Positions 3,750 to 28,079 of a stretch of 64,000 bases of DNA are shown piece by piece (position 1 is the stretch's first letter; every line of letters begins with the position of its first letter). Both the position numbers and the translations under genes were made by a program. The stretch is taken from positions 1-64,000 of the forward strand of contig JAJTUP010000055.1 in the NCBI GenBank assembly GCA_021399435.1, read 5' to 3'. The notes beneath the pieces were generated by a model. That model was not told where the DNA came from and ran no database searches. It saw only the letters and a list, made by a program, of their open reading frames with translations. Origin of the DNA: Diaporthe sp. PMI_573. Lineage: Eukaryota; Ascomycota; Sordariomycetes; Diaporthales; Diaporthaceae.

Positions 3750-5828
3750 ATGGCGGCTTATGAAGAGCTTCGTGCGCTCTCGTGGGCGGGAATGCCCCGA
3801 CGGCTCCTGAACATCGTTGCACTCCTGCTACTTGTTCGTTTTGGCCTCTTTCTGTGCAATGGTTGGCGCGTGCGGGCGAGGTTTCGAAAGCTTCAAGATG
3901 AAGGCATTGTAAGGGCACGCACCGATTTCAGCGGAAGGCAAGAAGACTGACCTGCCGTAGGCCGTCACACCCGAGCACTCGCTCATGTTCGGCCACCTCA
4001 TGCTTCTTAAACGCATCCGCGACCTCTATCCAAAGGACTCCGCGAGCACCTATGCGACTCGGCACATAGTCATGAACTGGCAGCAGTACTTCCCCAAATC
4101 AACTAGTTGCCCATCTGTCATCTATCTTGATTTCTGGCCGTTTAGCAGCGAGCCGATCGCAATTATTGTTGACCCGGCAATGTGCCAGACCGTTACGGCA
4201 GACCGGTTCCCCATTCGACGTAAGCAGCTTCTGTATACAATCTTGACCCCTTCCAGAAGAAACTTCTCCCCTCTGTGGCATATGCCTCAAAGAACTTGTC
4301 ACACTGCTGCCTCTGAAACAGGCCATGGCCACATCGTGACCATTTTCTGCCCTAAATCGTATGAAACTACTCGATTGGCCCTTTGACAGCTGACTCCGAA
4401 TGCTGCAGATGACCAAGGCAAGTACCTCGCATGGACTATGTCAGGGCCTCGAAACCTTTTCGCTTTCGACGGAGATGAGCACAAAAGGTGGCGTGCCAGA
4501 CTCAATCCGGGGTTCAGTGCCCGGAATCTTCAGTCACATATTGCCAAAGGCAAAATCATCGATGAAGTGTTGATCTTTGCAGAACGGATGAAGAAACATG
4601 CCGGCGCAGACGGGCAGTTTGGCGATGTGTTTCAACTGTTTCCACTGGCAATTGATCTGACATTCGACATTATCTGCAGGATCGTCTTGTGAGTTTGCTG
4701 TTGTGAATCAAAAAGTTGTCTGAGCGGGAGCTGATATACAGTTATAGAGATTTCAGCCCAGGCGAGCAAGTCAATGGGCCGACCGAGATGCAGAAGGCCT
4801 TTCGCATAATAAGCCAACATCTCGTATTCAAGAGCTGGGCGAGTCTTCACCAGCGCCTTAACCCTTTCTGGCAGCTTTCCTTGTGGAAGTGTCACCGGAC
4901 ATTGCGACGCGTGGTGCTGCCACATATAGAGAAGCACATGAGAGGGCATTCCCTCGATAAGAACTCGGGAGCTCAGAGGACAGTCCTCGATCTGGCCCTT
5001 AAAGAGGTTGAACTAGAAAGTCCGGGAGCTGAGCCCAGCGGACGGTTCATTGAGGATGTAGTAGGGCTAAGCAAGCAATTCTTGTTTGCGGGCCACGACA
5101 CTACAGCCATTAATATGTCTTTTGCTTATCACTTCCTTCACAAAAACGCTGGTGCACTCACTCGGCTAAGGGATGAGCATGACCGTGTCTTTGGGACCGA
5201 TCCGAGCCAGGCAACAGCATCCGAAATACTACGGCAGTCACCACACCTCCTTAACTCCCTACCCTTCACTACTGCGGTGGTAAAGGAAACCCTGCGCCTG
5301 TGCCCTGTTGCCGCGAGCATTCGGAAAGGACATCCAGGGTACACCCTCCGGAGCAATGACGGCATAGAGTACCCGATGGATGGCTTTATCGTTACTACCG
5401 GAGTTGCCTGCCTGGCATACAGCTCAGAAATGTTTGCAAGGCCGACAGAGTTTCTCCCCGAGCGATGGACAGCCCTCTCAGGGGACCCGCTGCATATCAA
5501 GGATGAAGCCAAATATGCCTGGCGTCCCTTTGAGTGGGGGCCAATGTCTTGTATAGGGATGGAGCTCGCTATGGTAGAGCTGAAGATGGCTCTTGTGCTC
5601 ACCGTTAGGGAGGTGGAGGTCGTGACCGCCTTGGAGGATTGGGACAGACTGCGGTAAGTTATTGTCCCTAGCCACTTGAGCTTCCAGAGCTAATCTCTTG
5701 TAATCAGGGGTATGGATAGTGGAACGAGACCGACTCTATTCGGAGACAAGATCTTCCAGGGTGCCGTGGGTCTTGGTCCGCCGACAGAGGGTTTACCAGT
5801 TCGCATCAGGATCTTGCGACAACAATGA
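3750..5828 (+). CDS. Cytochrome P450 monooxygenase, membrane-anchored
   Basis: Five exons: join(3750..3908, 3961..4219, 4409..4688, 4742..5653, 5708..5828), 576 aa, a normal P450 length. The N-terminus has a hydrophobic anchor (about residues 18-37) for the ER membrane. P450 motifs are in order: I-helix AGHDTT at 349-354, ExxR (E415, R418 in KETLR), PERW, and the haem loop FEWGPMSCIG with the thiolate ligand at Cys503. The usual Arg of FxxGxRxC is Met501 here, which is odd because that Arg contacts a haem propionate. Intron 2 (4220..4408) is a family A introner-like element; removing it joins C|AT in frame and restores the conserved stretch before FAFDGDEHKRWR. The substrate is unknown. Neighbouring accessory oxidoreductases would fit secondary metabolism, but no core synthase is in view. 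Confidence 0.88.
4220..4408 (+). mobile_element. Introner-like element, family A (copy in P450 intron 2)
   Basis: 189-bp intron beginning GTAAGCAGCTTCTG and ending CTGACTCCGAATGCTGCAG. It shares ordered blocks with 26906..27093 and with the reverse strand of 14427..15808: GTAAGCAGCTT, CCCCTTCCAGAA, ATGGCCAC, CTTTGACAGCTGACTC, GAATGCTG. Both splice sites lie in the conserved termini, so the element is exactly the intron. It interrupts a codon after base 1. The middle third is more diverged than in the other two copies, suggesting an older insertion. Confidence 0.88.
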
Positions 5829-6082
5829 GATGCCTTCTGGAGTAGGGGACTTGAGGAACGGGCTCTAATAAATTCTGTCGTACTCACGCAATGTTGCCAA
5901 AGGGCATTCAGGAACGAGTCACGTTCGGCTGCAAAGAAAATCAAAGTCTGTGGCCTCTATGCTAAGTTGCAGGCCTAGGGCGCGTACATGCTTGCAAGCC
6001 GTCAAGTCTATTCCCCATGTGCGACATTTCACACTCTGCAACCTGCTCCATGCCCCCTTATGGCAGTCATGCTTTCTCAGCA

Positions 6083-6602
6083 CTAACACTTCAATTGACC
6101 TTTGTCATCAATGCCCACGCAGTCATCTACCCGCAGAAAATACATGCATTAGTTTCGGATCAGACCGCTGAACGGAGGCGAATGAGCCACAGACAGCATC
6201 TTACTGAGGCTCTTCGGCACTCTCGTGTGAATGCCGTCGTTTGTATCACAGGAGCACTCCAGCCATGCGGGCTCATGCACAGCGCTTTGGGTGAAGTCGC
6301 AGTCCCAACAGGTATTGAGGAAATCTCCATACGAGCACTGCCAGCCCTATCAGTCAGGACCATATTTAGGCGTCGAACACGGAGCACCGAGTGCCTACCA
6401 CGAGCTGACCCTGAACGTTTCCAATGCACGCATTTAGATCCAGGTGTGAGACGACTGCCTGTCGAGTGCAGACAGCGCTGATGTTTCTGTGCTCTTCACC
6501 ATAGGAGTAGACGCTTTCGCAGTCAGAAGTAAAGTTATGGTACGAGCCCAAGCCCGCTGCCGCAATGTTGAAGAACAGGGGCAACGAGAGTAGAGTCAAC
6601 AT
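6083..6602 (-). CDS. Secreted cyanovirin-N homology (CVNH) domain protein
   Basis: Three exons: complement(join(6083..6126, 6205..6337, 6399..6602)), 126 aa, introns of 78 and 61 bp. Residues 1-16 form a signal peptide. The rest is one CVNH domain made of two sequence repeats. Each repeat keeps the Cys pattern and the ending typical of the fold: HLDLNACIGNVQGQLV in the first and LNDCVGIDDKGQLKC at the C-terminus. The LECSC motif precedes the second. CVNH proteins bind mannose-rich glycans; in fungi they are seen as secreted lectins, but the target here is unknown. The start at 6602 was chosen because it begins the signal peptide; an upstream in-frame ATG at 6710 would bury it. A TATA box lies 114 bp upstream. 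The gene is missed if read without splicing. Confidence 0.85.
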
Positions 6603-6715
6603 CTTGCATAGAAGATCGTATGAAGATTCGAGGAAAGTTAGTTCGTTTCGTCGGGAAGAGCGTGTAAGTTGAGGAAGGGTGCAGATGGTGCAGCCAGTGG
6701 AAGGACACATGATAT

Positions 6716-6723
6716 CTTATATA
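6716..6723 (-). promoter_or_regulatory. TATA box of the CVNH gene
   Basis: TATATAAG on the minus strand, 114 bp upstream of the CVNH start codon, a sensible distance for a fungal TATA box with a short leader. Confidence 0.5.
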
Positions 6724-7651
6724 GCCTTGTGAAACTTCTTTGTCACAAAGGGCTGTGACACAATTTGGTGAACGTGTAGCCTTCACGCAAATTCACCACA
6801 CAAGAGTGACACATGACCCAATTCGCCATCGTTCGCCTACGTACCAAGAGTTCCAATGGCCCTTGCAACATAGCCAGTGCGCTCTTGTAATTCTTTGAGC
6901 CGCAAGTTCCCAGACCCCTTTCAAAAAGCTACAGCCAAAAGTAATATCAGCTTGGCTATCTCGCCCTCTCTCTCTTCCCACCTTGGAAGAGACAACTCAA
7001 GTGCCGACTGCGTCACATGGCATTTCCGTAGACAAGCCGCACAAGAACTGAGCAACGCACTTAGGAACGGCATGAGAAGGTATTCGCAATTGTTACATAC
7101 CTAGGTAGTTAGTTATATGGAGAAGATGAGCATTGGCTTCCGTTTAGATTGATGCTGGCAGTGTTGGACGCTTGGGCAGGACCAGCAGTCCATCCGCCAA
7201 GCAATTATGATCTCAGCGCTCACTGGAAAGCAACTGTTCCAGCACCAGAGCCCCCTGATCTGGACCGTTAGCACACGGGCGGAAGAAGTCGCACCCACAA
7301 GGGTGTTTAAAGGCCAGGGTCGTTTCAACTTATCTTGCAAATCTGCTGACTGTTCAGACATCTGGTCGGCAGAATTGCAAGGCAGGCAGGCATCAAAGGT
7401 GCTACTCGCAGCTTTTGCGGGGTGCACCGCTTTAGCTTCCGAGGTCCTGTTGACACGCTCGCAACAAGGTAGTGAATTTCAAGTCGTGTTTTCGAGTGGT
7501 TGGAAATGCTTGCAGCTTGGCCAGGTCGATGACAAAGCTTGCCGTACATGTCCTGTAACAGAGCACTTCCAATTACAAAAACTCCATCTTTTGAAAATAG
7601 CACGTCATCCAAACCACCTCTCCACCATTCTCAATCAGGAGATAATCAAAA
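6724..7651. other. Intergenic region between divergent genes
   Basis: Holds the promoters of the CVNH gene (leftward) and the ToxD-like reductase (rightward). No further gene or repeat was recognised. Confidence 0.5.
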
Positions 7652-8695
7652 ATGGCAAGGATGCAAGCTCTCGTTACCCAAGAGGACCACGAGGTCGCCG
7701 TCCAAGAGATCGATGTCCCGACACCAGCCGAGGGAGAGATCCTCGTCCAAATCTCCTACTGCGCCCAGAATCCTACTGATTGGAAGGCCGCCGCCGCCGC
7801 CCCTCCAGGCCGCGTCGTCGGCTGCGACTTTGCCGGCACTATCGCCAATGCCAACGGCTCCACGTGGCGGGAGGGCCAACGCGTCGCAGGCTTCGTCCAA
7901 GGCACATCCACCAACGGCATCCCGCCAAACCCGACTCGTGGTGTCTTTGCCGAGTACTGCGTTGTTGAGAAGAGTCTTGTCTTTGCAATCCCGGACGCCG
8001 TCACAGACCAACAGGCTGCCGTCATCCCGCTGGCCTTTGCAACCGCCGTGCAGGCCATGATCCAGCGCCTACAACTGCCCGAGCCATCGAAGCCGGCCAG
8101 GACCGCCTTCTCCTTCCTTATAAACGGGGCCACCAGCTCAGTAGGAAAGTACGCGGTCCAGCTCGGCAGGCTTGCCGGCCTCTTCGTCGTGGCCACGGGT
8201 TCCAAGAGGAACCACGAGCTGCTCAAGTCCCTCGGCGCCGACGCCGTGGTCGACTACAGTGACGTAGACTGGCCCGAGCAAGTGCGCAAGGTGACCCACG
8301 ACGGGCTGCAGCATGCCTTTGATTGCATCGCTGAGGGGGGAACGCAAGAGGCTATCGCCAAGGCAATGGACCCAGTAAAGGGCGGCCACATCGTCGGCCT
8401 GCTCCCACACAAGCTGGAGCACCCGAAGGTCAAGTATGAGAGCACCATCGTCTACACAGTCTTCGAGAGGGCCCTGAAGTATGGCGCGTTCGACAACTGT
8501 GGGAGTGAACCGACCCCCGCAGACAAGGCTGTCTGGGAGAAGTATCTTAGCATGCTGCCCGAGCTGCTCAGCAGCGGCAAGATCAAGCCCAACCGGATTC
8601 GTGAGATGGGTGGCTTGAAGGACATCATGGCCGGTTTCAAGGAGCAGCAGGAGGGAAGAGTCAGCGCCGAGAAGCTTGTATACAAGATCGCGTAG
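7652..8695 (+). CDS. ToxD/LovC-like zinc-independent MDR oxidoreductase
   Basis: Intronless, 347 aa, a complete medium-chain dehydrogenase/reductase. The N-terminal GroES-like part contains YCAQNPTDWK (36-45) and VVGCDFAGT (55-63). The Rossmann nucleotide-binding segment is NGATSSVGKYA (158-168), followed by GADAVVDYSD. The Cys/His pattern for structural zinc is absent, as in the ToxD/trans-enoyl-reductase branch, so zinc binding is unlikely despite the common 'zinc-binding oxidoreductase' label. Relatives act as trans-acting enoyl reductases for polyketide synthases or as stand-alone NADPH reductases. No polyketide synthase is in the window, so a stand-alone role is as likely. Confidence 0.9.
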   Translation: MARMQALVTQEDHEVAVQEIDVPTPAEGEILVQISYCAQNPTDWKAAAAAPPGRVVGCDFAGTIANANGSTWREGQRVAGFVQGTSTNGIPPNPTRGVFAEYCVVEKSLVFAIPDAVTDQQAAVIPLAFATAVQAMIQRLQLPEPSKPARTAFSFLINGATSSVGKYAVQLGRLAGLFVVATGSKRNHELLKSLGADAVVDYSDVDWPEQVRKVTHDGLQHAFDCIAEGGTQEAIAKAMDPVKGGHIVGLLPHKLEHPKVKYESTIVYTVFERALKYGAFDNCGSEPTPADKAVWEKYLSMLPELLSSGKIKPNRIREMGGLKDIMAGFKEQQEGRVSAEKLVYKIA

Positions 8696-8834
8696 CTGGG
8701 GACATGGTACTAGACGGCGGGTGTGAGAGCATTGACGACCTCCACATGCAACGGTTGTCATGGTATTGGGAGCCAAAAATGAACAAATTTTTATTCCACA
8801 TCTATCCACCGCCCATGCTTTTATCCTCTATGAG

Positions 8835-9659
8835 CTAGACCCTTTCCGCCTTTACAAACGAGACTCCAGACTGTGGAAGCATAATTCCGGCCTGCATCAC
8901 CACCCAGAGAATCACGAACAACCCAGCCCAGTGAAGTAGACCTCTGCCTATTATGAAGCGTTTGACCATCTTCATGGTCTTCTGGTCATTGATCCTTGGG
9001 TATGCTGTCGGCGGAGTCTTCTTGCCCAGTAACCGACAGATGGGCTGCCAGCCATCCTCCGCCTTGAACTCTAAAACCTTCCTCCCCCTCTTCTTCGCCT
9101 CGTCTCTCACCCATTGATTGTGCTTATCGTAGATTAGCTGGTCTCGAAACGTCATACCCCATCTCTCCATATATAGGTTATCGACCGCCTTCATCATCCC
9201 CATCATCGCCCTGTCAGACTTGACGAGGAAGGTCGCGGCCCAGAAGAGCCAAGAGTCGAAGAAGCGCAGCCCTTCCGAGAAGCTGGTGTGCCACGAGGCA
9301 GCGCCGCCGGAGCGTACGTTCAGTATGATCTGTGCGTCCGGGTACATGTCTATCAAGTCGTCGGCGAAGGTTATGGAGGGGAAGTCGGCCGTGGCGGCAA
9401 AGCCTGCGAACAGCTGGCTGAGAATCTTGCGGCGCTTGAGTGTGTCCTTCTCCTGGGCGGCGGCTGTGACAAGGCGTTGCCGCTCGGCGCTGGGCTGCAC
9501 GTGCGCCATGTGCATACAAGGGGCGGACCCCAGAGTCTCGAGGGCGGCTTGCAGGGAGGACGTCGCGCACCGTGGGAGCCCCAGGGCTAGCACTTGGGGG
9601 TGGGTAGAGGAGCGATCGAGCTCGTGGGCGGAGACTGTCTCGTGAACGAAACGGACCAT
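8835..9659 (-). CDS. Sulfotransferase-fold protein (Sulfotransfer_4 type) with C-terminal membrane segment
   Basis: Intronless, 274 aa. The N-terminus has the phosphosulfate-binding-type loop LGLPRCATSSLQAAL (about 26-40). Further family motifs are the ADFPS segment and YPDAQIILNVRS. Fungal members are often misnamed NAD-dependent epimerases. A hydrophobic C-terminal helix (about 245-263) suggests membrane attachment. The substrate is unknown and activity cannot be judged from sequence. It ends 140 bp from the end of the ToxD-like gene, so the two are convergent. Confidence 0.85.
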   Translation of the reverse strand: MVRFVHETVSAHELDRSSTHPQVLALGLPRCATSSLQAALETLGSAPCMHMAHVQPSAERQRLVTAAAQEKDTLKRRKILSQLFAGFAATADFPSITFADDLIDMYPDAQIILNVRSGGAASWHTSFSEGLRFFDSWLFWAATFLVKSDRAMMGMMKAVDNLYMERWGMTFRDQLIYDKHNQWVRDEAKKRGRKVLEFKAEDGWQPICRLLGKKTPPTAYPRINDQKTMKMVKRFIIGRGLLHWAGLFVILWVVMQAGIMLPQSGVSFVKAERV

Positions 9660-12600
9660 GATGGTGGCTTGGCTGGAAATTCAAAGTGCCGGAGGTAAAA
9701 CTGCTGCACTATTCTATAAGTTTCTAGTGCTTTGTAGAATCTATTATGGTTTTGTTTTCTTGATCATGACTACCTGACTCTGCTTGAAAAAGACAATCAC
9801 GAGCCGTCCGTATTATAACCTCAAAAGATTGTATATTCTGTTCTATCCGTCCGGAACTTCCCCCTCGGTGATCCATTAGCCTAAGTCTGACTGATCGTCA
9901 AAATCGGCGGGAAGGAGGTGGCAGGAAAATGCTTCTTCTGCCGCAAGTTTCTCGGCTACCAAGATTTCTACTAAGATCAAAGGCTGTCTCACGGCGCGCC
10001 CAGAAATTGAAGTCCGAAGGATGTGGGAGGCAGAGCGGCAGCTAGTCTTAGCATCAATGTCTCTAACTGGTCTTCATCATCATTGGCTCTTAAAAGAAGG
10101 TTGGATTAAGTACACTCGGGCCCGAGGACAACGAGCTCAGGGACGGCACGGGAAGCTAGAAGATCAGTTCGTATAGTTGAGTGGCAGACCCTGTCCTACC
10201 TCTCGCTTAGAGCTGGCGCCGCAGGAACGATAATAGGAAAATGATCGGACGAACCAGTCACGCAGCATGTGCCGATCTGGGAGCCACAATTGGATACAGA
10301 GGCCCGTTCTACGGGGAGGAAGCCTATAGGACGGGCAAGATTAATTCACCGCCCTCCCTCGCGGACAAAACAAGCGCGGGGACATCCGACTGAAGCCCTA
10401 TTATAATGTGTGTGTGTCATTAATACGGCGATCCTTGGCCCGAAGCATCATCTCCCGCTGGTGTGAACACCTGACTAGAACCCGTCAAGTCTCTGTAGGG
10501 GCTGGGGATGATGTCGAGAGACACCGACAACCGCTCCCAAGGCTATATTACACAGTAGATCCGGTTATAGTAGTCAGCCGACTTCCGAGCCGATACTGAT
10601 CGGCCAAAAAGGGCTGACGGGACCCAATCAGGTGTTACTTCTTCGGCGTGCCGAGATGCGGCTGTAATGCAAGGTGTCTGCGGTGTAACGGTGGCTGCCA
10701 ACTGGGTGGCATTTTGTTCGGCCCGGAGGATAAGAATATGCGAGGTGACCTATACCTCGATGCGCCGATGAGACTGAGAGACGCAGAGTAATGAATATTG
10801 CATTCAAACATTGAGTTGAAGGGGCCGCTCTCGAGACTTTGCATTCGGGCGAAAGCATGACAATCCCATCATCGAATGTGCTTGTCTCACGAGATCCGGA
10901 ATTTGCCCAGAGTGTCGGTGGGCTCGAACAACTTCGCGCTAGCTAGACATAGACGATGAGCTTATGCTGAGTAGAGGCCTTGGCCTGCATTGCAAGTGAA
11001 CCACTCGGACGGGATAGGCGCACACATATTGGGGTCACCCGGTCTAGGCATGACATCTATGGCTCGGTGATCAGGGACGTTTTCGTCTCACCGACAAGTC
11101 TTCTCTTCCAGTTGGGCAACTCTGCTGCGAACCAGTAGATCGGAAACCGTGCTACATCCGGTGAACCTAGGAAGATCAGTTCGGGCCCATTCAACTAGCT
11201 ACAATACCATTCCTGGAGGATGCCGTTACTACTTGATCCCATACCTAGGGTACGCACTACAAGTATGGTTTTCCCTAAATCTGACCATGTACCTAATGCT
11301 CTTTCCTCCGACATTTGACTTTTGAGCTTGGCGTCCGGCGGAGATGTTGGCGATTCCGGCTCCTTCTCGCCTCACCAAAGGTAGGGCAAGGCTCACGTTT
11401 GCCGAGGTCACCATGATTTCGTTTCCTGGGCAGCGACGCTAGATTTCTGAAGGCGCGCTTGGGGTTTTCCTCGCGCACTAGAACAATAGCTGATGTGGCT
11501 TACCCGAATCTGATGTCAAATTCTTGCACAGTGGGATCTGGGGCACTTGACCCGTCGCGCAAAGGTTTTAACCCTGCGGTTGATTTCCTATTTCTCCGTT
11601 GGTAATTCACAGTGTACGCGACGGCTGGCCCAACCAGCGTTACCAGGATGGTGCTCAACTAGGTTCCCACATCTCCACTTGAGTTGAGGGCATCGTCTTT
11701 TCCATGCGCGTCAGGATTTCCACGATCGTACCTTCTCATGACCAGGCCTGTGCGAATCACCATGCTCAGTCCTGATGTAAGTGAGTACAGATTCGTCGCG
11801 ATTGGCTTCAGAGTATTTGTGATTTACTTTGTCTAAATAACGGGGCTTGAACTCTTGTATTGCGCAGGAGTCCTGCCCAAGTGTGTAATATCTGGTCGAG
11901 TCTGTTGAGTTTTACACCGAGAATACACAGAAAGGCTCGCCATGGGTGTTGTTGAGATGTAGGTCATGAGTTCCCTGAGCTATGATCATTGTCCGAAGAC
12001 GCATGTTGATCTGAGGTCCATTTGCACAATTCAAGCAATACGTGAACGTACTTAAGTACTGTTGATTCCGCTGATACGCATGGGACAGCAGGGCAGCCGC
12101 GTGGCCCCAAATACATAGCTCCAGCTTCTGAGCATATTGCTTCTGCGATATGCTGGGGAAACGTTGAGAACTCTACACTCAGCTCAAGAAGACGGGGAAA
12201 AGGACAGTCATTTCGACTCACCAATGTCTTGTCACCAGTCTGACTGGATGCCTTGACATAAGATAGCGATATGGTAAGTTTTTAGGCCGGAGACTACGTG
12301 AGGACCAGATTATCGGTTGATCTGGTCAAGTGCCCTAAGAAGAAGACTTCCACTGTCTGCCTGCTCCCAATGTTCCAGTCCTCGAAAGGTGAGAAGTCTG
12401 ACCAAAATGTGTGTCCTTTCCATTAAGACAAAATTTGAACCATACACTCAAGGCCGCAGTCGCGTTGAGACCTTGATTCACAGAAGCAGTGAGAAATTTC
12501 GCGTCCGCAGGCTCAGAAACCCCGGACAAATGTTGGACCACGAAACTAACGCTATTAACATGTTGGCGGTAGAGACTCCCCTCAAGCTCAACTTCGTCGT

Positions 12601-13946
12601 GAAAAATGTAGTCAGCACCATCAGAACCGGTCTTGCTGTTAGTGTCCCACGAGCTTTGCTCGGGTGTCCGCTTCGCGGCCACAGCATCTATAGTACTCGC
12701 TACCCAACCTCCTATGGGAAGACCTCTAGTCGGAAAGTCTTCTGTGGAACGACTTCCTATAGAATAACCAGACTAGACATAGGTAAGCTAAAGAGACTCT
12801 GTAAGCCACAGGGGCTCAATAATGAAGTTTTCGATTTTCTTCTTTGAATGTGGCTGTGTTACCGTAATAATGTATGTGATAGCACCCGTAAAATTGAAAG
12901 TCGTTGACAGACTTGGGCCAACTAGCTAAAGGGCGGCTTTCGTAAACTTGTAAATGCCGTCCAAACCATAACATGACAGACTGACAGCCGCTCCGTGCAC
13001 AGTTGCATAATGCATCACATGAGGAATTGAGGGATGGGACTAATATAGTCGTCCCTGCGTCTTCCCTCGGCCGCAGGTTTACTGCCAGCCCAGGGACTCC
13101 CAGACGGTCAGAGGAGCTCTATAATCAGGGTGGGGCCCCTGAGAATCGACTTTATTTCCTCGTCGACCCATTGGATTGAAGACTTCGCTGACATTTAAAG
13201 GACGCTAAAGGGCGGGCCAACATGACCAGAGACGACATATTGTGTAGTCAGAGGCACTTCCGGCTGATTTAACTCGAAAGAGTTACAGGCATTGCGCGTA
13301 GATGGTGGAGACCTCAAGGCGCTGTCATACCAACAAGGTAGGATCTATTGTACTTGATATTTTTGCCAATTGAGGAGAACCCTGTCAGCTTCACTGCAGT
13401 GATACATATCATCATCTGGTGAAGCGAGGCATCTGTGTGAGTCGTATTTCTCTTTTAAGAAAGCAAGGTGGAGATGTAAGCATTCCTGGTCAAAAGTCCG
13501 TAGGGGACCTGGTCGTGATCATGGCCATCAGTGCCACAAAATAAGGGGATAGTCCCTGACTCTTTGGAAAGTCGAGGAGCGGCACAGCAAACAGGGAACA
13601 CAGTGGGGACGGAGAGAGGCCCACCTCGAAAAGGACCCAATACCACCTGCCAGATCTAGATAGTAGCCAGATCTAGATGGTACCCTGTTGGATTTGCCAC
13701 CCCCCAGGTATGCGATTGATGGCCAACACACTGCCTTGAAGTCGTCCAGAATGTTGCTGACAACAGTAAGACATTGCTTGTTGGCGCGGTCGCTGCCCGT
13801 TGTCTTGCTGACTACTTTCTACCACGTCAAGTTCATAGAAGAGGTTCTACAACAAAACCTAGGCGCGGGGGGGTTACTTTATATACTTTCATTAAATATC
13901 TGCATTGAATACTAGACAACGCTATATCATCCGCATATGTTCATCT
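9660..13946. other. 4.3-kb stretch with no supported gene
   Basis: All open frames are short, and none shows a recognisable domain or splice structure. Two minus-strand frames (12335-12682 and 11964-12224) look somewhat protein-like in composition but match nothing I know. They could be remnants of a decayed gene. A short direct repeat of CCAGATCTAGAT occurs near 13650-13680. No transposon ends were found. Confidence 0.5.
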
Positions 13947-16900
13947 TTATGCGCGGCACATCCTGCCGTCAGCGGCAACAGTCCAGGCATCACTGCCCAC
14001 CGTCTTGAGCGCGTAGAACACGCCTGTAGGGTCCCACTTGCGTTTGATCTGGAGGAGGCGGTCGTAGTTACCACCAAAGAACTTCTCCTTCCAGCCGGCA
14101 ATGTTGAAGTCGACCTCGTTGATGTAGTTGCCGCCTCCCGGCGTAGCCGTCTCAATAGGCGGAATGATTTCGTCAGTCATGCGTTTTTGGTCCGCGAGCA
14201 TCTTCTCCCAGTCCGCTGGGTCGTTGCTCCAGGCCGTCGAGTACTGCACGTGGAGCGTGGCTTTGCGGAAGTATGGGTTCACCGCGTTGGAGACGCCAGC
14301 AGGGGCGCTTCCGTTGAAGGCCGTTCCCGCAGCCAGAACACCAGCGTTATCGGCACCATAGCGGATTGCAGAGATGTACTTAGCGCGGGAGTCTGAGTTG
14401 GCGAGGATATTGCGCGGGACAATTCGCTACAGCATTCAGAGTCAGTTATGAAAGAACCAAAGAAGTAGCTTTATGCCAATACGGTGAGGGGTAAGCAGTG
14501 ATGTTATTGGATTGGAGGCAATTTGGATTGGACTGGATTTGTCGGAAAATGGCTGGACTGGATTTGGGTTTCTCGAAGATTTGGACTGGATTGGATTGAT
14601 TGGCAACCAGCTCCTGGAGCTCCAATGGTCTAACCTGATAAGGCAAGAGCTAAGCCTAATTGAGTGGTCATGAGGAGTCTCCCGTCGCAGCTGCCGTCGC
14701 AGACCACGACACGACGCGCGAACTATCGTTCCGCTATTGGGTTAACATCCAACGCGTGCAGATTGCTACGCTATTAAAAGCACGGAGGCAAACGCGTCGC
14801 TCGCGACTTCAGCAGTCCTTCTACTGTGGCAGACGTGTCTGAACAGTCCACTCACCAGCTACACCATGGCCACTATCTCCAGCTATTTCGGTGCTGCCAG
14901 CGGTCGCCGTCCTGATTCTGACAGAGTTATTCTTGCTCCAACATATATTAGTCCTCGCCCAAACGACCCCGACGGAACCCTGATCGAACCCGACGAATTC
15001 AAGCTGAATGGGAAGCAATATGTACGCTACTCTGTTGTGGCAAAGTCCCAAAAGCACACCAAGAAAAGGACATCAGTCGTCTGGCAGTATGGTGAAGACA
15101 TACAACTCAAGCAGGACCCGACGAAGACGTTCTGGTACTGTTATCTGTGCGAACAGCAGCAGCGCCAACAGGGACTTCCTATTTCCGGCAAGGGCAATTG
15201 TACTACCTTAAACCACCTGGAATCGAAACACCAAATCATCGCTCACGGCTCCGGATGGACGTCATTGAAGCCAGCGAGTGCTTACGAGCTTGGTATGGTC
15301 GCCCGGAGCAGAAGGCATTTGATGACTCTGCCATCGGTTTGATGGAGGGTGAGGCAGGGAGTACAGTTGGGGCGGATGGGCTGGGTGAGGGAGAGGAAGG
15401 CGGCGAAGATGATGGAAGCGAGAAGAACATACTGGAGACGCAAGTTGCTAGAGAACATGAGCTCCGTAGTTAGGTGGTGTCATAACCCAAGGACAAGAAC
15501 AGTTCTACTCCAAGTCTGCTTATTCAGCGGCTCATTGATTGTCCCAAAAGGGTAAAAATATGAACTGGATCGGTTCTGGATATCCTGGAGGCTGCCTGTC
15601 CCCACGTCTGGACTGGATTGGATCGAGGCTCGGATCCAGCTCCAATCCAATCCAATAACATCACTGGGGGTAAGCCACAAGGTGGCCACCGCGTTTTTTT
15701 TTTAAAAAAAAAAAAAAACCTGCAGCCCGTAAGGTCTTTGTTGTATGGGCTAAAGATGGGGAGTGTTTTTTCTGGAAGGGGTAAAGATTGTATCCAAAAG
15801 CTGCTTACAGAGCCGAAGTTGTAAGACTCAACCTCAACGTGACCATAGGGAAGAGGACCCATCCACTGGTTGTAGTGATCACGGTAGCTGGTGAAGTTGG
15901 TGGCAGACAGGGAGTACGGGATGGACAGGTTGGCAAGAACGTCAAGGAATGGGCTGAGAATAGCTTGTGCCTGCTCGGCGGTCTTGTTGTAGGCCGTCAG
16001 AGGGTTGATAGCAAAGACGGAGCTTCCGTACACAAAAACAACCATTGCGCCTTGATCGGTCATGCCTGGAAGAAGTCCGTGGAAGGCGTCCAGCATTTGC
16101 CACCACTTTTCCTGGGTAGTGTAAGAGGCCGCAGTCTGCAGGCCGACACCCCCGATGACGGGTGCCTCGGGGTGGGCTCGAACGGTGACTGAAGTGACGA
16201 CGCCGAACGTGCCAGGACCGCCGCCACTAAGAGCCCAGAAGAGGTCGGCGTTCATAGTACGAGAGGCAGTAACAATCGACCCGTTGGCAGTAACAACCTC
16301 GTACTCAAGAGCTTGATCAGCGGCCATACCGAAGTTAGTTGTCAGGGCCGAGTGCCCACCCCCTTGGATATATCCACCGGCAGGGCCGACAGTAGGACAC
16401 TCGCCGCCAACGACGACAAGACCTGCGGTCTTCCCAGCTTCCGTGACTTCGTAACCGAGCACACCGGCACCCATTTTAATGGCGGGTCCATTCCAGAGGT
16501 TGTCGGACCATTGGGTCACGGTGATCTCCTTGAGCTTGTGCGTCCAAGCTGCCAGTGCTCCTGCACCGGTTGACCGGCCAAGGTGACTAGATTCACGCCA
16601 TTCAGCTGCGTGTTGCCGCAGGTGAGGCGTGAGGGAGATTATAGCTTACTCGTGACCAGTGTTCCGGACAAGGAACCGAATATTGTTATCCCGCGCAAAT
16701 CTGATAGTCGCCGCGACATCCTGAGCAGAGGTGACCTCAACGGCGTAGCTGACATAGTTTTCCCAGTCTACAGGGGGTGGTGCGATCTGTGAACGGGTCG
16801 CAAGACTGGTTTGCGAAGTAAGACTGCATGACCGAGGAAGATGACGGGAAGCTGGAGGTGTGATTAGATGTTGGCTCATGTAACTGTGAGGGCGTGGTCC

Positions 16901-17300: not shown

Positions 17301-17308
17301 TCTTTATA
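17301..17308 (-). promoter_or_regulatory. TATA box of the FAD oxidase gene
   Basis: TATAAAGA on the minus strand, about 120 bp upstream of the start codon at 17182. Confidence 0.45.
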
Positions 17309-19699: not shown

Positions 19700-20697
19700 A
19701 TGACCCTCGTCGCCCGCCTCGTCGCAAGGTACAATGCCTTCTATGCTGAACGACCGGGTATGTGCCAGCCATGCCCATCATCGCCGCAAGCCCCGTCCAT
19801 CAGCCTACAGCCTCTGACTTGCCCAATTACAATATCGGCTTCAATGCGAAAATCATACTGACAATACCCAGTCCTCACCATGATGGTGACCAACGCCGTC
19901 TTGGGAGGCATCGCCGACACCGTCGCACAGTCAATCACTGCTGTCCGCCAGCGCGCCCTTAGGAAGGCTCCCGCTTCCCCGGGAGCAAGGGACACAGCCT
20001 ACGAACTCGACGTCAAAGACCCGTTCACCGAGCGAGAGCTGATCCCCGGCTCCAAGGCCCTGCCGCCGCCATTCGACTTCGAGCGCCTGACAAGGTTCAT
20101 GGCGTACGGTTTCGCCATGGCACCCCTACAGTTCAAGTGGTTCGGATTCCTTTCGAGGACCTTCCCTATCACCAAGACCAGTGCTTTTGGGCCTGCTATG
20201 AAGAGGGTTGCCTTTGACCAGATTATCTTCGCGCCATTCGGTACGTGTCTACGACGAGAACACCGGCTCCGGGACGGGGGCTGTTCCGGAATCCTGAAGA
20301 TGAGCTCCATCTTGGTTTTGCTCACGGGACTAACAACGCGATAGGTGTTGCCTGCTTCTTCACCGTCATGACTGTTGCCGAGGGTGGTGGCCGACGTGCC
20401 GTCATATCGAAGCTCCGTGATATGTACGTGCCGACCCTGAAGGCCAACTACGCAGTCTGGCCTGCGGTTCAGGTCATCAACTTCCGTCTGATGCCTGTCC
20501 AGTTCCAGCTTGTAAGCACAATACTCCTCACAGACCTTCCCAGCCCAAGTTTGCAAGTTGCTAAGTCGTTTGTATAGCCTTTTGTCTCTACTATCGGAAT
20601 CGCTTGGACTGCGTACCTCTCCCTCACCAACGCTGCCGAGGAGGCTACCCAGCCAAACCCAGCCGCGCTCAGCCCCAACAACATCCGCTTGGAATAG
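19700..20697 (+). CDS. Mpv17/PMP22-family integral membrane protein
   Basis: Four exons: join(19700..19757, 19872..20240, 20345..20511, 20578..20697), 237 aa. The protein begins with the family pattern of a short helix ending YNAFYAERP, then MMVTNAVLGGIADTVAQS. It continues with FAPFGVACFFTVM and the C-terminal signature LKANYAVWPAVQVINFRLMP, then WTAYLSL. Four hydrophobic segments are expected. Family members sit in peroxisomal or mitochondrial inner membranes and are proposed to form channels or affect mitochondrial DNA maintenance; which membrane is used here is not decided by sequence. All four splice junctions restore the family sequence in frame. Confidence 0.9.
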
Positions 20698-21484
20698 ATT
20701 AGGAACGGCTCTATATGATAAAGACGAATTCTCCTTTGCGTGTTGGTTCTGTCATTGGTGGTGTATCGTATATAGAGTTTGGCCGGGAGGTTTCTCGGGC
20801 ATTGTGTGCGGCGTTTGGTCTGTCTGGGGTTTTAGAGGACTTCAGTCCCGTACTTGTGTGTACTCTGGATCGACTCATTGGCGTTGGCAGGATTGTGCTG
20901 AAGTACTTGAAATACAAAGTATTTTTATGTCAGAATGTCGAGCATCGCCCTCGCGACGCAGAGAATGTGCATGGTCGAGATGTTGTTCAAGACCTTCATG
21001 GTCCTGATGCAAAACCCGTGTTGACATGAATGTTCAAACTGCTCTGGATCATTTCGTCAGGGGGCTCGCTCAGAGGCCGAGAACCTGGCTCTGTGTGTCG
21101 ACTGTTTATCCACTCTCGAGATCCTGTGTTAGATGAATTGCATGTCCAAAACACGAGATGCGAAGGCTAAAAATTTGCCAAGTCAAACGGTATCGGACCT
21201 CCTGAGTCTGACAAGTCAACGGCGAGAAATATCGCGCATGGAACGATCAGGAGAGCTCACGTCACCGGGAGCTCAGATACTGCCCCTCCAAAGCACCCCT
21301 CACCCCACCCAACAGCCCTTCAAAACCCAGCGTTTCCCGCCCTCTCCTCCCACCAAGCATCACCTGTACTCAAGCATACATAAACACCTACGGACCCTCC
21401 GTCTACTAACACTCGCCTTCTATTCACCCCCGGCATCAGAAGATTTCTGCTGTGTTCCATTGATACCCAATCTACAACACAACC
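20698..21484. other. Intergenic region and PGK promoter
   Basis: The last 200 bp before the PGK start are rich in C and pyrimidine tracts (CACCCCACCC, CTCTCCTCCCACC), as is usual for strongly expressed fungal glycolytic genes. No other gene was recognised. Confidence 0.5.
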
Positions 21485-23040
21485 ATGTCTCTGTCCAGCA
21501 AGCTCTCCATCACCGATGTCGACCTGAAGGGCAAGCGGGTCCTGATCCGGGTAAGCTGTGACTATTCTCCGGGCCATGGCACACGGCTCTCTGTCTCTCC
21601 TGGCCTCGTCTTTGTGATGGGACTCGCTTCAACTTGGCTTTCGATCAGTCGCCGGCCATGTTGGCCCTCCCGAGAGATGAGGAGCTTGCTCTGGAGCTCC
21701 AGAATGTCCCGGGAGGGCTTGAAATTTCGGGGGACATTCCCAAGCTCACATATCTGTGACTAGAATCTTACGCTGACATGTATCCTCACGATCTAGGTCG
21801 ACTTCAACGTCCCCCTCGACGCCGACAAGAAGGTGACCAACAACCAGCGTATTGCCGGTGCCATCCCCACCATCAAGTATGCTGTAGACAACGGCGCCAA
21901 GGCCGTGGTGCTCATGTCCCACCTTGGCCGCCCCAACGGAAGCCCCAACCCCAAGTACAGCCTGAAGCCCGTCGTTCCCGAGCTCGAGAAGCTTCTGGGC
22001 AAGTCTGTCACCTTCGCCCCCGAATGCGTCGGCCCCGAGGTTGAGGCTATCGTAAACAAGACAGAGGGCGGTGGCGTTGTGCTGCTGGAGAACCTGCGGT
22101 TCCACATTGAGGAGGAGGGATCTGCCAAGGACAAGGATGGCAACAAGACAAAGGCGGACAAGGAGAAGGTTGCCGAGTTCCGGAAGGGCCTCACGGCGCT
22201 GGGGGACGTCTACATCAGTAAGTTGAAGATCCCACCCACTTGCGTCAAACACAAGCACTGACAAAGGCTTCAGACGACGCTTTCGGTACTGCCCACCGCG
22301 CACACTCCTCCATGGTCGGTGTCGACCTGCCCCAGAAGGCCGCCGGTTTCCTGATGAAGAAGGAGCTGGACTACTTCGCACAGGCCCTCGAGTCCCCCCA
22401 GAGGCCCTTCCTGGCCATCCTGGGTGGCGCCAAGGTGTCTGACAAGATCCAACTGATCGACAACCTGCTGGACAAGGTCAACACGCTCGTGATTGCGGGC
22501 GGCATGGCCTTCACCTTCAAGAAGACCCTTGACAGCATGTCCATCGGCAACTCGCTGTTCGACGAGGCCGGCGCCAAGACCGTCCCTCAGCTGGTCGAGA
22601 AGGCCAAGAAGAACAACGTCAAGCTCGTCCTGCCGGTGGACTTCATCACGGCCGACAAGTTCGACAAGGACGCCAACACTGGCACGGCCACGGACAAGGA
22701 GGGCATCCCAGAGGGCTGGATGGGTCTGGACTGCGGCGCTGAGTCCGTCAAGCTGTACAAGGCCGCCATCGCCGAGGCCAAGACTATCCTCTGGAATGGC
22801 CCGGCCGGTGTGTTTGAGTTCGAGAAGTTCGCCAGCGGCACCAAGGCCACCCTGGACGCCGCCGTGGAGGGTGCGCAGTCCGGCAAGATCGTCATCATCG
22901 GCGGTGGTGACACGGCGACCGTGGCTGCCAAGTACGGCGTCGAGGACAAGCTCAGCCACGTCTCGACAGGCGGCGGCGCCAGCCTGGAGCTACTCGAGGG
23001 CAAGGAGCTGCCCGGTGTGACCGCCCTGTCGAGCAAATGA
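21485..23040 (+). CDS. pgk1: 3-phosphoglycerate kinase
   Basis: Three exons: join(21485..21550, 21797..22217, 22274..23040), 417 aa, the standard fungal PGK length. It catalyses 1,3-bisphosphoglycerate + ADP to 3-phosphoglycerate + ATP in cytosolic glycolysis. Signatures are VDFNVPLD (substrate-binding strand), [31 protein letters not shown], the hinge segment [15 protein letters not shown], and the C-terminal nucleotide-binding [13 protein letters not shown] followed by [16 protein letters not shown]. Intron 1 (21551..21796, 246 bp) follows codon 22 and is long for this genome. Codon use is strongly biased to C-ending codons, consistent with high expression. Confidence 0.98.
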
Positions 23041-23596
23041 AGGTCTGCTCAGGCTCCTCAGATCCATGACGGCAAAATCGCAGGCCGGACGATGGACAAG
23101 GCCAGTCTCTAGTTCGACGACTCCAGGGGTAAAAAGCTATAATAGAATGTAAAATGCGTCCCACGTTGTTCATGCCTAACGCCGAGCCTTTTGTAATTTG
23201 AGAGCGTCAATGAGCCATCCCTACAATAGTCATGTTCTTGCTCGCCATCGAATGTAGTCTATGGTGTCAACCCCTGCCCTCACTGGCAGCACACTCGGAG
23301 ATATCTCGTTATGCTCAAACGCCTGTTTAGTGCGAACGTGGCTCGTTCGATTTCTACGACTCTCCTGCCTGCGCGCCCTTGTGCCGCTCGGCCACTAAAA
23401 CGTACTCCTCATCAGCAGCGCCATCACCGCCGTTCGCTGAGGCAGTGCCGTAATCTGAGCTGATGACCTCCTAGGAACGGCTAATGCTAGCTTCATCATC
23501 ACTCTTTTCCGAGCCGTCGCCGCCGTGCTTTCCGGCAACAGGGGTTTGTGCGCCGGGTTCCTCCCGCGCCGCCGGCGGCTCCGTGGCGCGCGTCTC
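23041..23596. other. Intergenic region between convergent PGK and SEM1
   Basis: Contains the 3' ends of both genes. No additional gene or repeat was seen. Confidence 0.5.
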
Positions 23597-24116
23597 CTAT
23601 CTCCGGCGCTTCGACTCCTCGACTTTCTTGAGCTCCTCCCTGTGTGTGGGCAAAGTTTGTCAGCTAGCTGTTCTGTATAGACGAAGCGTGCACGACGAAT
23701 GCCCCAGAACGGAACGGAGCGGGGTGGTTCAGATGCGTGTGCATTGTATACATGCAATCGTGTATACGTTCTGGGTGAGGCGATAGTGGCGTGACGTACT
23801 TGAGTTGCTGGGAGAAGTCGTCGCTCGTGTCGTCATCGTCCCAGGACTCCTCCCACAGGTGCTTGGTCTCGCCGCTGTTGGCCGCCTCGGTCTCCTCTAC
23901 GGGCCAGTCTGTCGGGGACGTCAGCCATAAGTATGGTCTCAGGGTGCAGCAGTAGGTGGATGACGCGTGGTGAAGGGGCTGGCGCAAACCTTCTACCGGG
24001 AAGTCCTCGAACTCGTCGTCCTCCTCAAGGGCTGCGGCCGACTTCTGCTGAGCCTCCTCGGGCTTGGCCTCGCTGGACGTGGGCTTCTCGTCCTTCTTGG
24101 GTTGTGATGATGCCAT
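23597..24116 (-). CDS. sem1: 26S proteasome lid subunit Sem1/DSS1
   Basis: Three exons: complement(join(23597..23639, 23800..23908, 23990..24116)), 92 aa. The acidic, disordered protein shows the two conserved clusters of the family. The first is EDDEFEDFPVE followed by DWPVEE; the second is KHLWEESWDDDDTSDDFSQQ (in single letters about 60-79), before a basic tail KKVEESKRRR. Sem1/DSS1 tethers Rpn3 and Rpn7 in the proteasome lid and is also part of TREX-2 and BRCA2-type complexes. The 5' extension of about 25 residues rich in Lys/Glu/Ala is normal for filamentous fungi. Intron phases (1 and 2) restore the motif exactly. Confidence 0.95.
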
Positions 24117-25308
24117 TGTTGCTGTTGATGCTGTGTTTGTGAAGTCGCTAAAGAGCGGGAAATCCGATCGAAGTCAAGTATTAGGCGTGCGTGCAGTGTG
24201 CTGTATGAAAGGCGGAGCTGTGCTGGTGTCAGGACGTTGGGAGGGTGGAAGTCGGGTAGGTGGAATGGAGGGGAGCTGCGATCAGAAGCGAAGCTCGACC
24301 GACCGACCATTGACTACCCAACTGTCGGCAGGCTCCCAGGGTGCTGATGCCATCCAAATGTGGCGCGGCCTGTGGCTGGGAACGGGTACCTAGGTACTTA
24401 TTCCACAACCTAAGGTACGCTAAAGTACTGCAGTCAGGTACCTACAGTCGGATGTAACGCTGGGAGATACACAGTACCACCGTCAGCAACCGTCTCTCTA
24501 TCAGCCTGACGGGGACCGGAGTTACCGGGCGGCCCCAGGAGGAAACTATGCCTCGCCCTGGTAGAATGATCCAGGCTAACACACGCTTCTGGGAAGGGTT
24601 CAAGGACTGACGCTGGATAAAGGGCCCGAGACCGAGCACGGGTTACGCATTACAAAAATGGCTCGTCTCTTCTCTCATGCTGACGAGCCAGATGTTTCTA
24701 CTCCCATCCACCCTCCGCTTGGGTTCCTGTTTCGCTCTTGCACCAGGAGAGTCAGCCCAGCAACCATCCGTCTCATAAGGCTCTGTCTGTCTGTCTGCCT
24801 GTCGAAGCGGCTGAAGTCAGCATCCATTCAACTGCGGCGACTCCAGTCACCAAGATAACCAACCGTATAGAACCCGCACGCGACCCTCCCTCCTGCTTGG
24901 GGCATACGGCACGGTTCTAATCCAACTCCCCCTGGCTGTTCACCGGATCGGATACGTCATTTTGAGCTGTGAGGAGGCCAGACTCTGTTATAGACGGCGG
25001 CTGAGCATATTGGCCCGAATTCCATGTCCTCGCTCATCAGCTCGCTCATCAGGACCCTTGGCCAGCTCCGAAGCGATTACGAAAGTTTATCTTGAAGCTA
25101 GCTAGCGCTCCCGGGGGCTCAATTCCGCACCTCTGGCTGTTACATCCGGGTTCAAAACGACTCGTGGACTCTTGCACGACTGCAACCGTGCTTTCGAGAT
25201 TTCTTGTGCACGGGTCGAGCAGTTGTTTCACAACCCACGACAACTTCGCTGCTGCAGGCCGTGGGACGGAACCAGATTCATCCAAAATCGCTCGCCAGAC
25301 TGCCCGTC
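24117..25308. other. Intergenic region between divergent SEM1 and IML2
   Basis: Promoter space for both genes. Short tandem CTGT units occur near 24782-24800. No gene recognised. Confidence 0.5.
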
Positions 25309-28079
25309 ATGAGGTCGTGGTTCAAAGGCTCCGTTGCGGCCAATTCCTCAAAACTGAGTGTCTCATCCAGCAAGAATGCCAGCTCCACTCAGGTTGCAGA
25401 TCCCCGGGATGTCGAGGCATCCGACCTGCAAGATGCCATGGAAGCAGCCGCCCGCATCGTGAATGATGATATCGACGGCGCGGAATCACAGCTCAAGGCC
25501 CGGAAGGATTCGTCTAGTTTCCACCAGCTCGGGCTCGGCATCGCAGTTTTCATGAGGTCGATCTTGGGCTTTGAGAAGGAGATCATGGCCGAGGCAGGTA
25601 ACCGACTAGCTGAGTGCGAGACCCGGGCGTGGGCCGACATGAAGAAAGCGCAGAAGCAAGCCGAGGGGGGCGGCGGTTGGTTTAGGGGCGGCGGCGCTCA
25701 GAATGGCCAAGGGCCTCCAAAGAACAGCCAGATTTACCCGCCAGGAAGCGAATACCAGCTTGTCAATGCGGAAGCACAACTTAGTCAGTGTCACTTTTCT
25801 CTTGCAACGCATCCCCGACTTTCATGTTTTGGAATGTTCTAGAATGCAACACTTTAGGATCCATAGCAGGACTAACGTCACCATCAGTGGGCGCCATCAT
25901 CTCCGTCATGCACGAGAGTCTCACGGAGGGAATCAGGGGGTTCTACAAGCTGCGCAAGGCTTTCGTTGCACTCGATGCTATCATGGAGGCTGAATCGAGG
26001 ATCTTCGCTGAGCGGAAGCTCAACGGCGCGGCGCAAGAACCGTCCAGCGTGGTGGATGCTTCTAAACAGAACGTGATCGCTGAGGATCAGAAGAATCTTG
26101 AGTCTGATAGCGACCTCGAATTTGTGGACGCCCCGGAAGATGTTGAGAGGTCGCAGGCACCGGCGGCATATGCCGGCCACCTGAAAAGAGTGAACAGCAA
26201 ATCTGCCCCGAGCTCCGTGCTTGAAAATGATGTGAGCGACTTGGCTTTGGATACTGCCACGACATCTTTGCCTACGTCGAGGCAAGGCTCACCGGACTCT
26301 CAGGAAAGGAATGGGTCTCCGCAACGACGCCTAGTCCGGCAGACCCTCCTCGACCAGGCTGGCCCAGACTCGTCGATTTTCACAAATCCAGTCGATGTTT
26401 TTGTTCGTAAGCATCACTCTTCTCCTGTCACGGATCCCCGTCTTTCATGTTTTGGAATGTTCTAGAATGCAACACTTTAGGATCCGTAGCAGGACTAATG
26501 CCATACTTAGACAGCGGGGCGAATATGTGTTTCGGAATATTGTTGCTCATCATCTCCATGGTTCCGCCAGCCTTTTCGAAACTTCTGTATATTATCGGAT
26601 TCAAGGGTGATCGTGAACGCGGGGTACAGATGCTGTGGCAAAGCACCAAATTCGACAATGTCAACGGGGGAGTGGCCGGCCTAATGCTTTTGGGTTATTA
26701 TAACGGCATTCTCGCATTTGCAGACATCCTCCCTTCCGAAAAAGACGTCGAGGAGCTCGCGGACGAGGGCGAGATCATTGGGTATCCCAAGGAACAGTGC
26801 TCTGCCCTTCTGCAAAGCATGCGCTCGCAATACCCGCAATCCGGGATGTGGAAAGTCGAGGAGGCTAGGAATCTCGCCAACGCCCAGCGCGTCCCTGAGG
26901 CAGTGGTAAGCAGCTTTTGGATGCGACTTTTGCCCCTTCCAGAACAGACATACCCCATATTTAGCCTATACAACAAAGACTTTATGGGCTGCAGGTTTTA
27001 AAACAGGCTATGGCCACCTTATGGCTCAGTTCTCACCGTATCAGCATGAGGCTATTTCTTTGGTTCTTTGACAGCTGACTCTGAATGCTGTAGGCGATGC
27101 TCAAGTCGAACGGCGACTCTAAGATGCGCCAGGTCACGGCGCTCAGCAGCTTCGAGCTGTCTACCAATGCCCTTTTCATGATGGACTGGGTGACTATGCG
27201 CGACGGTTTCCTGAGGTGCATTGAGCTCAACGACTGGAGCCACAGCCTTTACTACTTTTTCATCGCGTCGGCTCAGCTCGAGATGTACCGCGATGCGGTG
27301 CAGGCGGGAGAGTCCACGGAGGCCAAGAAGCACAAGAAGGCGGCCGAGGAATACTTCCGGAAGGTCCCCGCGTCGGCAGGCAGAAAGAAATTTCTCGCTC
27401 GACAGATGCCGTTTGAGGTCTTTGCGCTCCGCAAGGTCCAGAAGTGGGAAGACCGCGCCAAGGAATATGGCATCGATTTCGCCGATGCAGTAGGCGTGTC
27501 ACCCGCCGAAGAGATGACGTATCTCTGGTCCGGGTCCAAACGCATGTCGGATGAGATGTTTGGCAAAGCGCTGGCCTACCTGAGCTGGGACAGGTGCACG
27601 GCGAGCAAGGAGCACGTGGAGAAGATGAAGGCCATCCCGGACGAGGCGGCCATCAAAGCGGTCGCAGAGTCCGCCATCTTGAGCAACATGGGCCGGTATG
27701 ACGACGCCAGGGAGAAGGTCAAGCCCTACCTGGAGCAGGACAGGTGAGACGTATTGCCGTGTTATCACTTCCAGAGACTGATGCTGACTATCTGTCCAGG
27801 ACACTGTTCAAAGGTACCACGAGAGATGACTACACCCTCCCGTGCGCGCACTACGAGATGGCCGTAGTGGCGTGGAAGGAGGCATGCGACCTCAAGTGCT
27901 GGCCAGCGGCAGCTGAAGAGTCTGACGATTTCAGGCAGAAGAAGGTCGCAGAAAGCCAGGAGTACCTGGATCACGTCAAGACGTGGGAAAGTTTTGTCCT
28001 CGACGCCAGGATTGGAATGAGGGTACAGACAGGTTCGGACAGCATCGCGTGGCTGAGAAGGAAGAAGAACTGGACATGA
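25309..28079 (+). CDS. iml2: IML2/TTC39-like tetratricopeptide protein with three introner introns
   Basis: Five exons: join(25309..25783, 25888..26406, 26511..26905, 27094..27743, 27800..28079), 772 aa. The family (inclusion body clearance protein Iml2, relative of animal TTC39) is mitochondrial or cytosolic. It carries an N-terminal helical region ([20 protein letters not shown]), a middle hydrophobic segment ([16 protein letters not shown]) before IIGFKGDR, and C-terminal TPR-like repeats. In yeast it helps clear protein aggregates via lipid droplets. Introns 1 and 2 are family B introner-like elements and intron 3 is a family A element; only intron 4 (56 bp) is ordinary. Every junction restores the family sequence. 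The start at 25309 was chosen because MRSWFKG begins the conserved part; an upstream in-frame ATG exists at 25204. Confidence 0.92.
25784..25887 (+). mobile_element. Introner-like element, family B (IML2 intron 1)
   Basis: 104-bp intron with the donor GTCAGT. It shares TTTCATGTTTTGGAATGTT, CTAGAATGCAACACTTTAGG and AGCAGGACTAA with 26407..26510 and 41512..41612. Insertion is at codon phase 1. The last 11 bases before the acceptor differ between copies. Of the three copies this has the weakest donor (GTCAGT instead of GTAAGC), so it is probably older. Confidence 0.9.
26407..26510 (+). mobile_element. Introner-like element, family B (IML2 intron 2)
   Basis: 104-bp intron, the same length as intron 1, beginning GTAAGCATCACTCTTCTCC. 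Acceptor TAG at 26510 was chosen over CAG at 26514 because only the former keeps the frame (GTT C|AC AGC). It has the best hairpin of the family: ACGGATCC at 26430-26437 can pair with GGATCCGT at 26480-26487, with the self-complementary TTCTAGAA near the loop. Confidence 0.92.
26906..27093 (+). mobile_element. Introner-like element, family A (IML2 intron 3)
   Basis: 188-bp intron beginning GTAAGCAGCTTTTGGATGC and ending CTGACTCTGAATGCTGTAG, at codon phase 0. It is the cleanest family A copy and serves as the reference for the other two. Internal inverted pairs include GCCAC/ATGGC around a CTT loop and TAGCC/GGGCTG. Both splice sites are inside conserved termini. Confidence 0.93.

Follow-up and report, generated by a model that had tools for sequence, protein, structure and literature searches.

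How one short sequence comes to stand as an intron in three unrelated genes is the question raised by the first 64,000 nucleotides of contig JAJTUP010000055.1 of Diaporthe sp. PMI_573, the stretch referred to here as the window. A preliminary description of the window read the repetition as the gain of introns from an element that multiplies and brings its own splice signals, and copy number, location in the sense direction of coding sequence, and absence from the orthologous positions of IML2 all support this reading. Two families, A (~189 bp, with CAG and TAG subfamilies) and B (~104 bp), are very probably introners that make new introns. Both would be multiplying spliceosomal introns whose insertions into coding exons are seamless and sense-oriented. 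Each introner would bring its own donor, branch-point-like motif, and acceptor, and the host protein would thus be unchanged after splicing.

Introners of the window

Family A: The three copies lie in a P450 gene, an FAD/BBE oxidase gene, and IML2 (Table 1). A sequence check agrees with the coordinates, strands, and termini first reported for them, and the insertion phases of 1, 0, and 0 are confirmed. The termini GTAAGCAGCTT...CTGACTCYGAATGCTGYAG are common to all three copies. The ordered internal blocks are shared less widely than was first described, as GGCCACCTT is present in the IML2 and FAD-oxidase copies, whereas the P450 copy reads GGCCACATC in its place. The CTGAC in the conserved 3' end is branch-point-like.

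Removal of the intron was said to restore the conserved protein in each gene, which holds for IML2 and the FAD oxidase and more weakly for the P450 gene. IML2 without its introners is 100% identical to the annotated protein of the strain over the whole 680-aa query, and all three introners are excised there. A second protein of the window matches Diaporthe sp. PMI_573 at 92%, through a read-through frame that exceeds the annotated protein in length. The spliced FAD oxidase matches MtVAO615 with an E-value of 6.5e-89, and the alignment passes the junction with a one-residue gap close by. In the P450 gene, the joint frame is open after intron removal (86+94 codons). The joined stretch of 180 aa has no Pfam match, and its only PDB matches are eight weak ones (E 0.22-0.94), seven of them named P450 and one OxyB, which is presumably also a P450.

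The FAD-oxidase copy reaches 1382 bp through a nested 1171-bp insertion, an element whose terminal inverted repeats are CAGTGATG. The nested element looks like a non-autonomous hAT.

Family B: The IML2 intron of the preliminary description does belong to family A, and two other introns of the same gene belong to this second family, which was found by masking family A and comparing the analysed loci. Family B elements are ~104 bp long and contain the core TTTTGGAATGTTCYAGAAYGCAWCAC, with ACTAAC ahead of the acceptor. The 26-nt core occurs at 256 places of the genome with at most 3 mismatches, compared to 0 for the control. In a frame test on 20 family B matches, 12 were resolved and 11 of these 12 have a stop-free joint frame; the evidence is weak, since ends and phase were fitted so as to minimise stops.

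Table 1. Introners and associated features in the 64,000-nucleotide window.
Feature	Position	Strand	Length (bp)	Phase	Context
Family A introner, CAG subfamily	4220..4408	+	189	1	intron of P450 gene; site C|ATG
Family A introner, TAG subfamily	14427..15808	-		0	intron of FAD/BBE oxidase gene; split by nested element
Target-site duplication CTTACCCC of nested element, other side	14488..14495	-	8		
Nested element	14496..15666	-	1171		terminal inverted repeats CAGTGATGTTATTGG..CCAATAACATCACTG; longest stop-free stretch 198 codons
Target-site duplication CTTACCCC of nested element, one side	15667..15674	-	8		
Family B introner	25784..25887	+	104	1	first introner intron of IML2; site A|TGG
Family B introner	26407..26510	+	104	1	second introner intron of IML2
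Family A introner, TAG subfamily	26906..27093	+	188	0	third introner intron of IML2
Conserved 3' end GCTGACTCTGAATGCTGTAG of IML2 family A copy	27074..27093	+			branch-point-like CTGAC and TAG acceptor
Family B introner	41512..41615	+	104	1	in a further gene; phase and open joint frame from a fit favouring open frames

Spread, splicing, and insertion sites

The 83.7-Mb genome of Diaporthe sp. PMI_573 contains family A at hundreds of places, which excludes the case, raised in the preliminary description, that there are no further copies. The 3' motif (19 nt, at most 2 mismatches) occurs at 203 places versus 3 for a reversed-pattern control, and the 5' motif (25 nt, at most 3 mismatches) at 159 versus 0. 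Chance is excluded as the source of the repetition. DNA searches covered the best 40 of 121 candidates with the IML2 copy as query and the best 40 of 139 with the P450 copy; the merged family A lists comprise 134 distinct places, and the loci analysed are part of these. They contain 22 partial pieces and 84 full-length matches, of which 74 have unique flanks. The 74-copy sample, selected for resemblance to the IML2 and P450 copies, includes both members of two duplicated loci. Nearest-neighbour identity among 71 copies has a median of 93%. Introners in the broad sense are introns alike over their whole width, in families of at least five (PMC12403724, as excerpted). The 74 unique copies of family A show this full-length similarity, for which at least five unrelated genes are asked. 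Their flanks are unrelated apart from the two duplicated loci and neighbouring B elements. The duplicated loci, L062/L064 (C161/C177, 98.8% identical) and L055/L059 (C18/C46, 97.7%), each have their own family A copy, and the duplication came after the insertion.

The sense coding score exceeds the antisense score in 72 of the 74 copies, and the remaining two differ by at most 0.3. The same best frame is found on both sides in 59/74 (~25 expected), retention brings an in-frame stop in all 74, and the joint coding score is below 3 in 12. Training of the coding model used long open frames from the very loci that carry the copies tested. In a subset of 68 copies, which omits two duplicates, one copy whose end is unclear, and three lacking GT..AG ends, frames agree in 56 (p ~1e-16). 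Frames, protein conservation, and annotation agree in marking the family A copies as putative spliced introns. The counts of 72/74 in sense and 59/74 in the same frame also give family A the bias to genes and to sense orientation of ascomycete introner-like elements (ILEs).

At least 70 family A end pairs were obtained from 100 listed of the 159 5' ends; 58 of the 70 span 187-204 bp, and ten are shorter. Two are outsize, namely one of 1118 bp, perhaps made up of two different copies, and the 1382-bp FAD copy. Three copies of 128 bp (L080:1774-1901, L085:1501-1628, and L041:898-1025) occupy different sites and have one internal deletion in common, which indicates that a shortened form of family A also spread. 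The middle of the element seems dispensable for spreading.

Exact family A places are concentrated, with 71 of 97 on 11 contigs, together 9.9% of the genome, that were picked after seeing family A (C35, C101, C124, C138, C145, C146, C160, C161, C169, C173, and C177). C169 is the contig of the window. The same contigs hold 40 of the 71 exact family B places (7 expected, p ~3e-22). An A is found no more than 1 kb away from 12 of the 71 B places, versus 0.16 under a uniform distribution. In the dense contigs alone, 9 B places are near an A, compared to a mean of 0.74 after random shifts, and none of 2000 shifts gave as many. GC content hardly differs, being 53.1% in 53 loci of dense contigs and 52.6% in 28 loci of sparse ones. 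Exact copies are often close together, and the IML2 and eS17 genes each carry both families.

No target-site duplications were found for family A, as the 3-, 4-, and 5-mers common to both flanks number 28, 7, and 1 against shuffled means of 26.8, 5.4, and 0.8. Its consensus has no terminal inverted repeats beyond a 4-pair near-terminal match. One or the other of these features marks DNA-transposon introners, and the lack of both is the pattern of ascomycete ILEs, which is the pattern seen in family A.

Family A prefers A|TG or |ATG sites, at which 36 of 68 copies lie; ATG represents 1.65% of the triplets flanking family A copies. The CAG subfamily is found at A|TG in 21/49 copies and before ATG in 10/49, and the TAG subfamily at A|TG in 5/19 and before G in 12/19. 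The base after the insertion point is G in 2 of the 49 CAG copies versus 12 of the 19 TAG copies (p ~5e-7). CAG|G is a usual acceptor context, and the rarity of G after CAG-subfamily insertions despite this suggests insertion chemistry rather than selection for splicing. Frames agree in 23 of the 26 A|TG copies, with phase 0 in 5, phase 1 in 16, and phase 2 in 2. The site is thus not only the Met codon, although the Met codon is commonest.

The two families also fold differently. The family A consensus has no conserved fold, folding no better than column shuffles, and single-copy folding of 68 copies gives a mean z of -0.24 with 3 below -2. Pairing of the 5' with the 3' 24 nt (CAG -13.0 versus -8.3 shuffled; TAG -10.6 versus -7.4) stays below two standard deviations in each subfamily and was set aside as weak. 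The family B consensus, from 17 unique copies, forms a hairpin of -8.6 versus -2.1 +/- 1.7 for column shuffles (z -3.9, 0/100 as low), with 303 of 318 cells paired and one pair showing a two-sided change. Family B also has subterminal inverted repeats. Four single B copies gave z values of 0.14, -3.89, -0.33, and -1.49, only one of which is below -2. The core TTCYAGAA is common to family A (CAG subfamily, position ~32-39), family B, and the published Hypoxylon palindrome, and may reflect homology or chance. A predicted stable or symmetric secondary structure is described for fungal ILEs in the part of PMC8469720 cited here. Family A thus counts as an introner only in the broad sense and not as an ILE in this narrow one.

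Gain in IML2 and introners within introners

IML2: The preliminary description named sharing of intron positions with orthologues as evidence against gain, and for IML2, the gene checked, the positions are not shared with relatives. All three are uninterrupted in 11/11 apparently unspliced orthologue frames, which are 70-94% identical, so the three IML2 introners were gained. Sixteen orthologues were inspected among 120 listed of 749 matches, and 11 of the 16 are such frames, from 'lgn' and 'ena' sources. They appear unspliced because they stop at ...QDR, where the conserved last intron begins and annotated relatives go on through it. The annotated relative P0134, without the stretch around the second position, was left out of the count. 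This evidence of gain comes from the one gene.

eS17: The ribosomal protein gene eS17 (L089:1-601, C144:492500-493100) has one A and two B copies. After splicing, 53 residues align gap-free to fungal eS17 (7r81, which we take to be from Neurospora) over all three junctions. In its family A copy the donor region is altered to GTAAGT, and this copy may be a founder or an old copy.

ATP synthase alpha: A 105-bp intron of this gene (L070:1797-1901) has both ends in common with family A, and its 3' half aligns with 18.8 bits, a score inflated by the locus having been picked by its 3' motif. Many contiguous frames cross the site, the best at 94% identity among 120 listed of 8000 matches. One of these frames (P0258, 92%) may come from a Diaporthe-like genome, in which case it would argue against great age of the intron in Diaporthe. 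The intron may be the founder or a distant copy of family A.

Six joined-flank sites searched across the genome match only themselves, with no empty sites among the results. A hybrid genome with empty homeologues was rejected on the same result.

Nested introners: An A donor is interrupted by a B element at two loci, between its bases 2 and 3 in L003 (C35:423937-424183, minus strand; junction C35:424109-424140) and between its bases 1 and 2 in L090:104-491 (junction C160:334263-334295). Removal of both introners and of another upstream B from L090 leaves an OPT transporter sequence, with Pfam OPT over 60/60 residues. L003 is open with both introners removed (262+17 codons) and also with B alone removed and A retained (262+31 codons), so the frame does not decide the case. 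Judged by sequence, L090 would be a [D1,2] stwintron and L003 a [D2,3] stwintron. A genome-wide pattern of one type of B end followed by A, with at most 3 mismatches, has exactly two matches, L003 and L090. An A donor preceded by AG in place of GT was not found at 1 mismatch, a pattern outside which the known nested case falls. Among the 70 end-paired A copies, none has the length of A plus an inner B, and 30 listed 5' ends are unpaired. The two cases of B nesting at an A donor are a lead and not a rule.

Routes of insertion and known systems

The likeliest insertion mechanism, to which we give about an even chance, is reverse splicing. The spliceosome would reverse-splice excised intron RNA into transcripts (or transcribed DNA), and the insertion would then be copied into the gene. 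This RNA route is favoured because the copies lie in coding sequence in the sense direction, because the joins are seamless and free of duplications, and because B is inserted at the A donor while none of the 70 paired A copies has the length of A plus an inner B. Against it, the site preference of family A is not predicted by reverse splicing as such and needs an extra explanation. Selection could remove antisense copies within genes, though not intergenic ones. A more specific proposal, put forward tentatively, is that the spliceosome itself inserts into transcripts at a preferred exon sequence (YA|TGG for CAG and |G for TAG, the last intron bases helping to choose the target). It would also hit the donors of existing introns, and B inserted into A would give [D1,2] and [D2,3] stwintrons in one step. 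If this is true, introner-in-introner insertion would be a birth route of stwintrons.

Fekete et al. propose that double-strand breaks are filled with excised intron RNA, which is then made into DNA. Such capture would account for seamless joins, fits the consensus hairpin of family B, and is allowed by its authors to occur within an existing intron (PMC12403724, as excerpted). It is nevertheless a doubtful source of these introns, since fillers should give random sites, both orientations, and intergenic copies. Family A has instead a strong site preference, its examined copies are in sense coding sequence, and its fold is not unusual. It is also unlikely that A and B are non-autonomous DNA transposons with ends that happen to splice and a transposase acting in trans. 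In IML2 and eS17 the protein alignments cross the junctions gap-free, so that no base can have been duplicated or lost there, and family A is found in sense in coding sequence with neither target-site duplications nor inverted ends beyond the 4-pair match. This stands against the facts that the transposon route is the commonest among introners of other eukaryotes (PMC9860276, in the section cited), that the family B hairpin beats 100/100 column shuffles, and that an endonuclease or transposase might show the site preference of family A. Spread of ordinary introns by segmental duplication or gene conversion of exons, as at the two duplicated loci, is extremely improbable and is refuted for the copies compared by their unrelated flanks, since the remaining matches in the comparison of 74 joined flanks fall within a single locus or come from neighbouring B elements and the six joined-flank sites match only themselves.

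Families A and B can also be set beside the known systems, for which the literature is cited from parts of the papers. The ILEs of the Dothideomycetes Fulvia, Dothistroma, and Zymoseptoria comprise hundreds of near-identical introns in unrelated genes, with several families per species (PMC4457414). Ascomycete introners are gene-biased and lack target-site duplications and inverted ends according to the section of PMC9860276 cited. The Diaporthe families resemble these in their hundreds of copies, unrelated genes, and several families, and family A also in its gene bias and lack of duplications and inverted ends. Compared by description, family A differs in having no stable fold and in preferring A|TG / |ATG. 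The preliminary comparison with Dothideomycetes concerns the wrong class, as the host Diaporthe is a Sordariomycete. The sister stwintrons and cropped sister introns of Hypoxylaceae/Xylariaceae are likewise inserted seamlessly without target-site duplication, and the family B consensus is symmetric as theirs is. Moreover, family B carries TTCTAGAA, the core of their palindrome WTTCTAGAAA (PMC8469720), which may be chance. In contrast, no exon bias is reported at their insertion sites in the part of PMC12403724 cited, whereas family A is site-biased. In addition, A and B are single introns, and stwintrons are found here only where B is in an A donor. Algal and protist introners (Gozashti et al. 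2022 and earlier) share the mass creation of introns by a multiplying element. Target-site duplications or inverted ends occur in 78.5% of scorable non-ascomycete introner families (PMC9860276), and family A, with neither, is unlike most of them. A limited literature search found no earlier report of introners in Diaporthe, and the genus does not appear in the main text of PMC9860276 as covered. The kind of element is already known, and the lineage, site preference, and nesting look new within that search.

The origin of spliceosomal introns is a long-open question, and families A and B are numerous enough to reveal insertion rules. Related fungal introns are reported to have no site bias, from which family A departs, and the base after the insertion point differs between its two subfamilies. 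A route from two introners to one stwintron is illustrated by the two nested cases. With hundreds of copies in place of introns, new introns are being made by copying in this Diaporthe genome.
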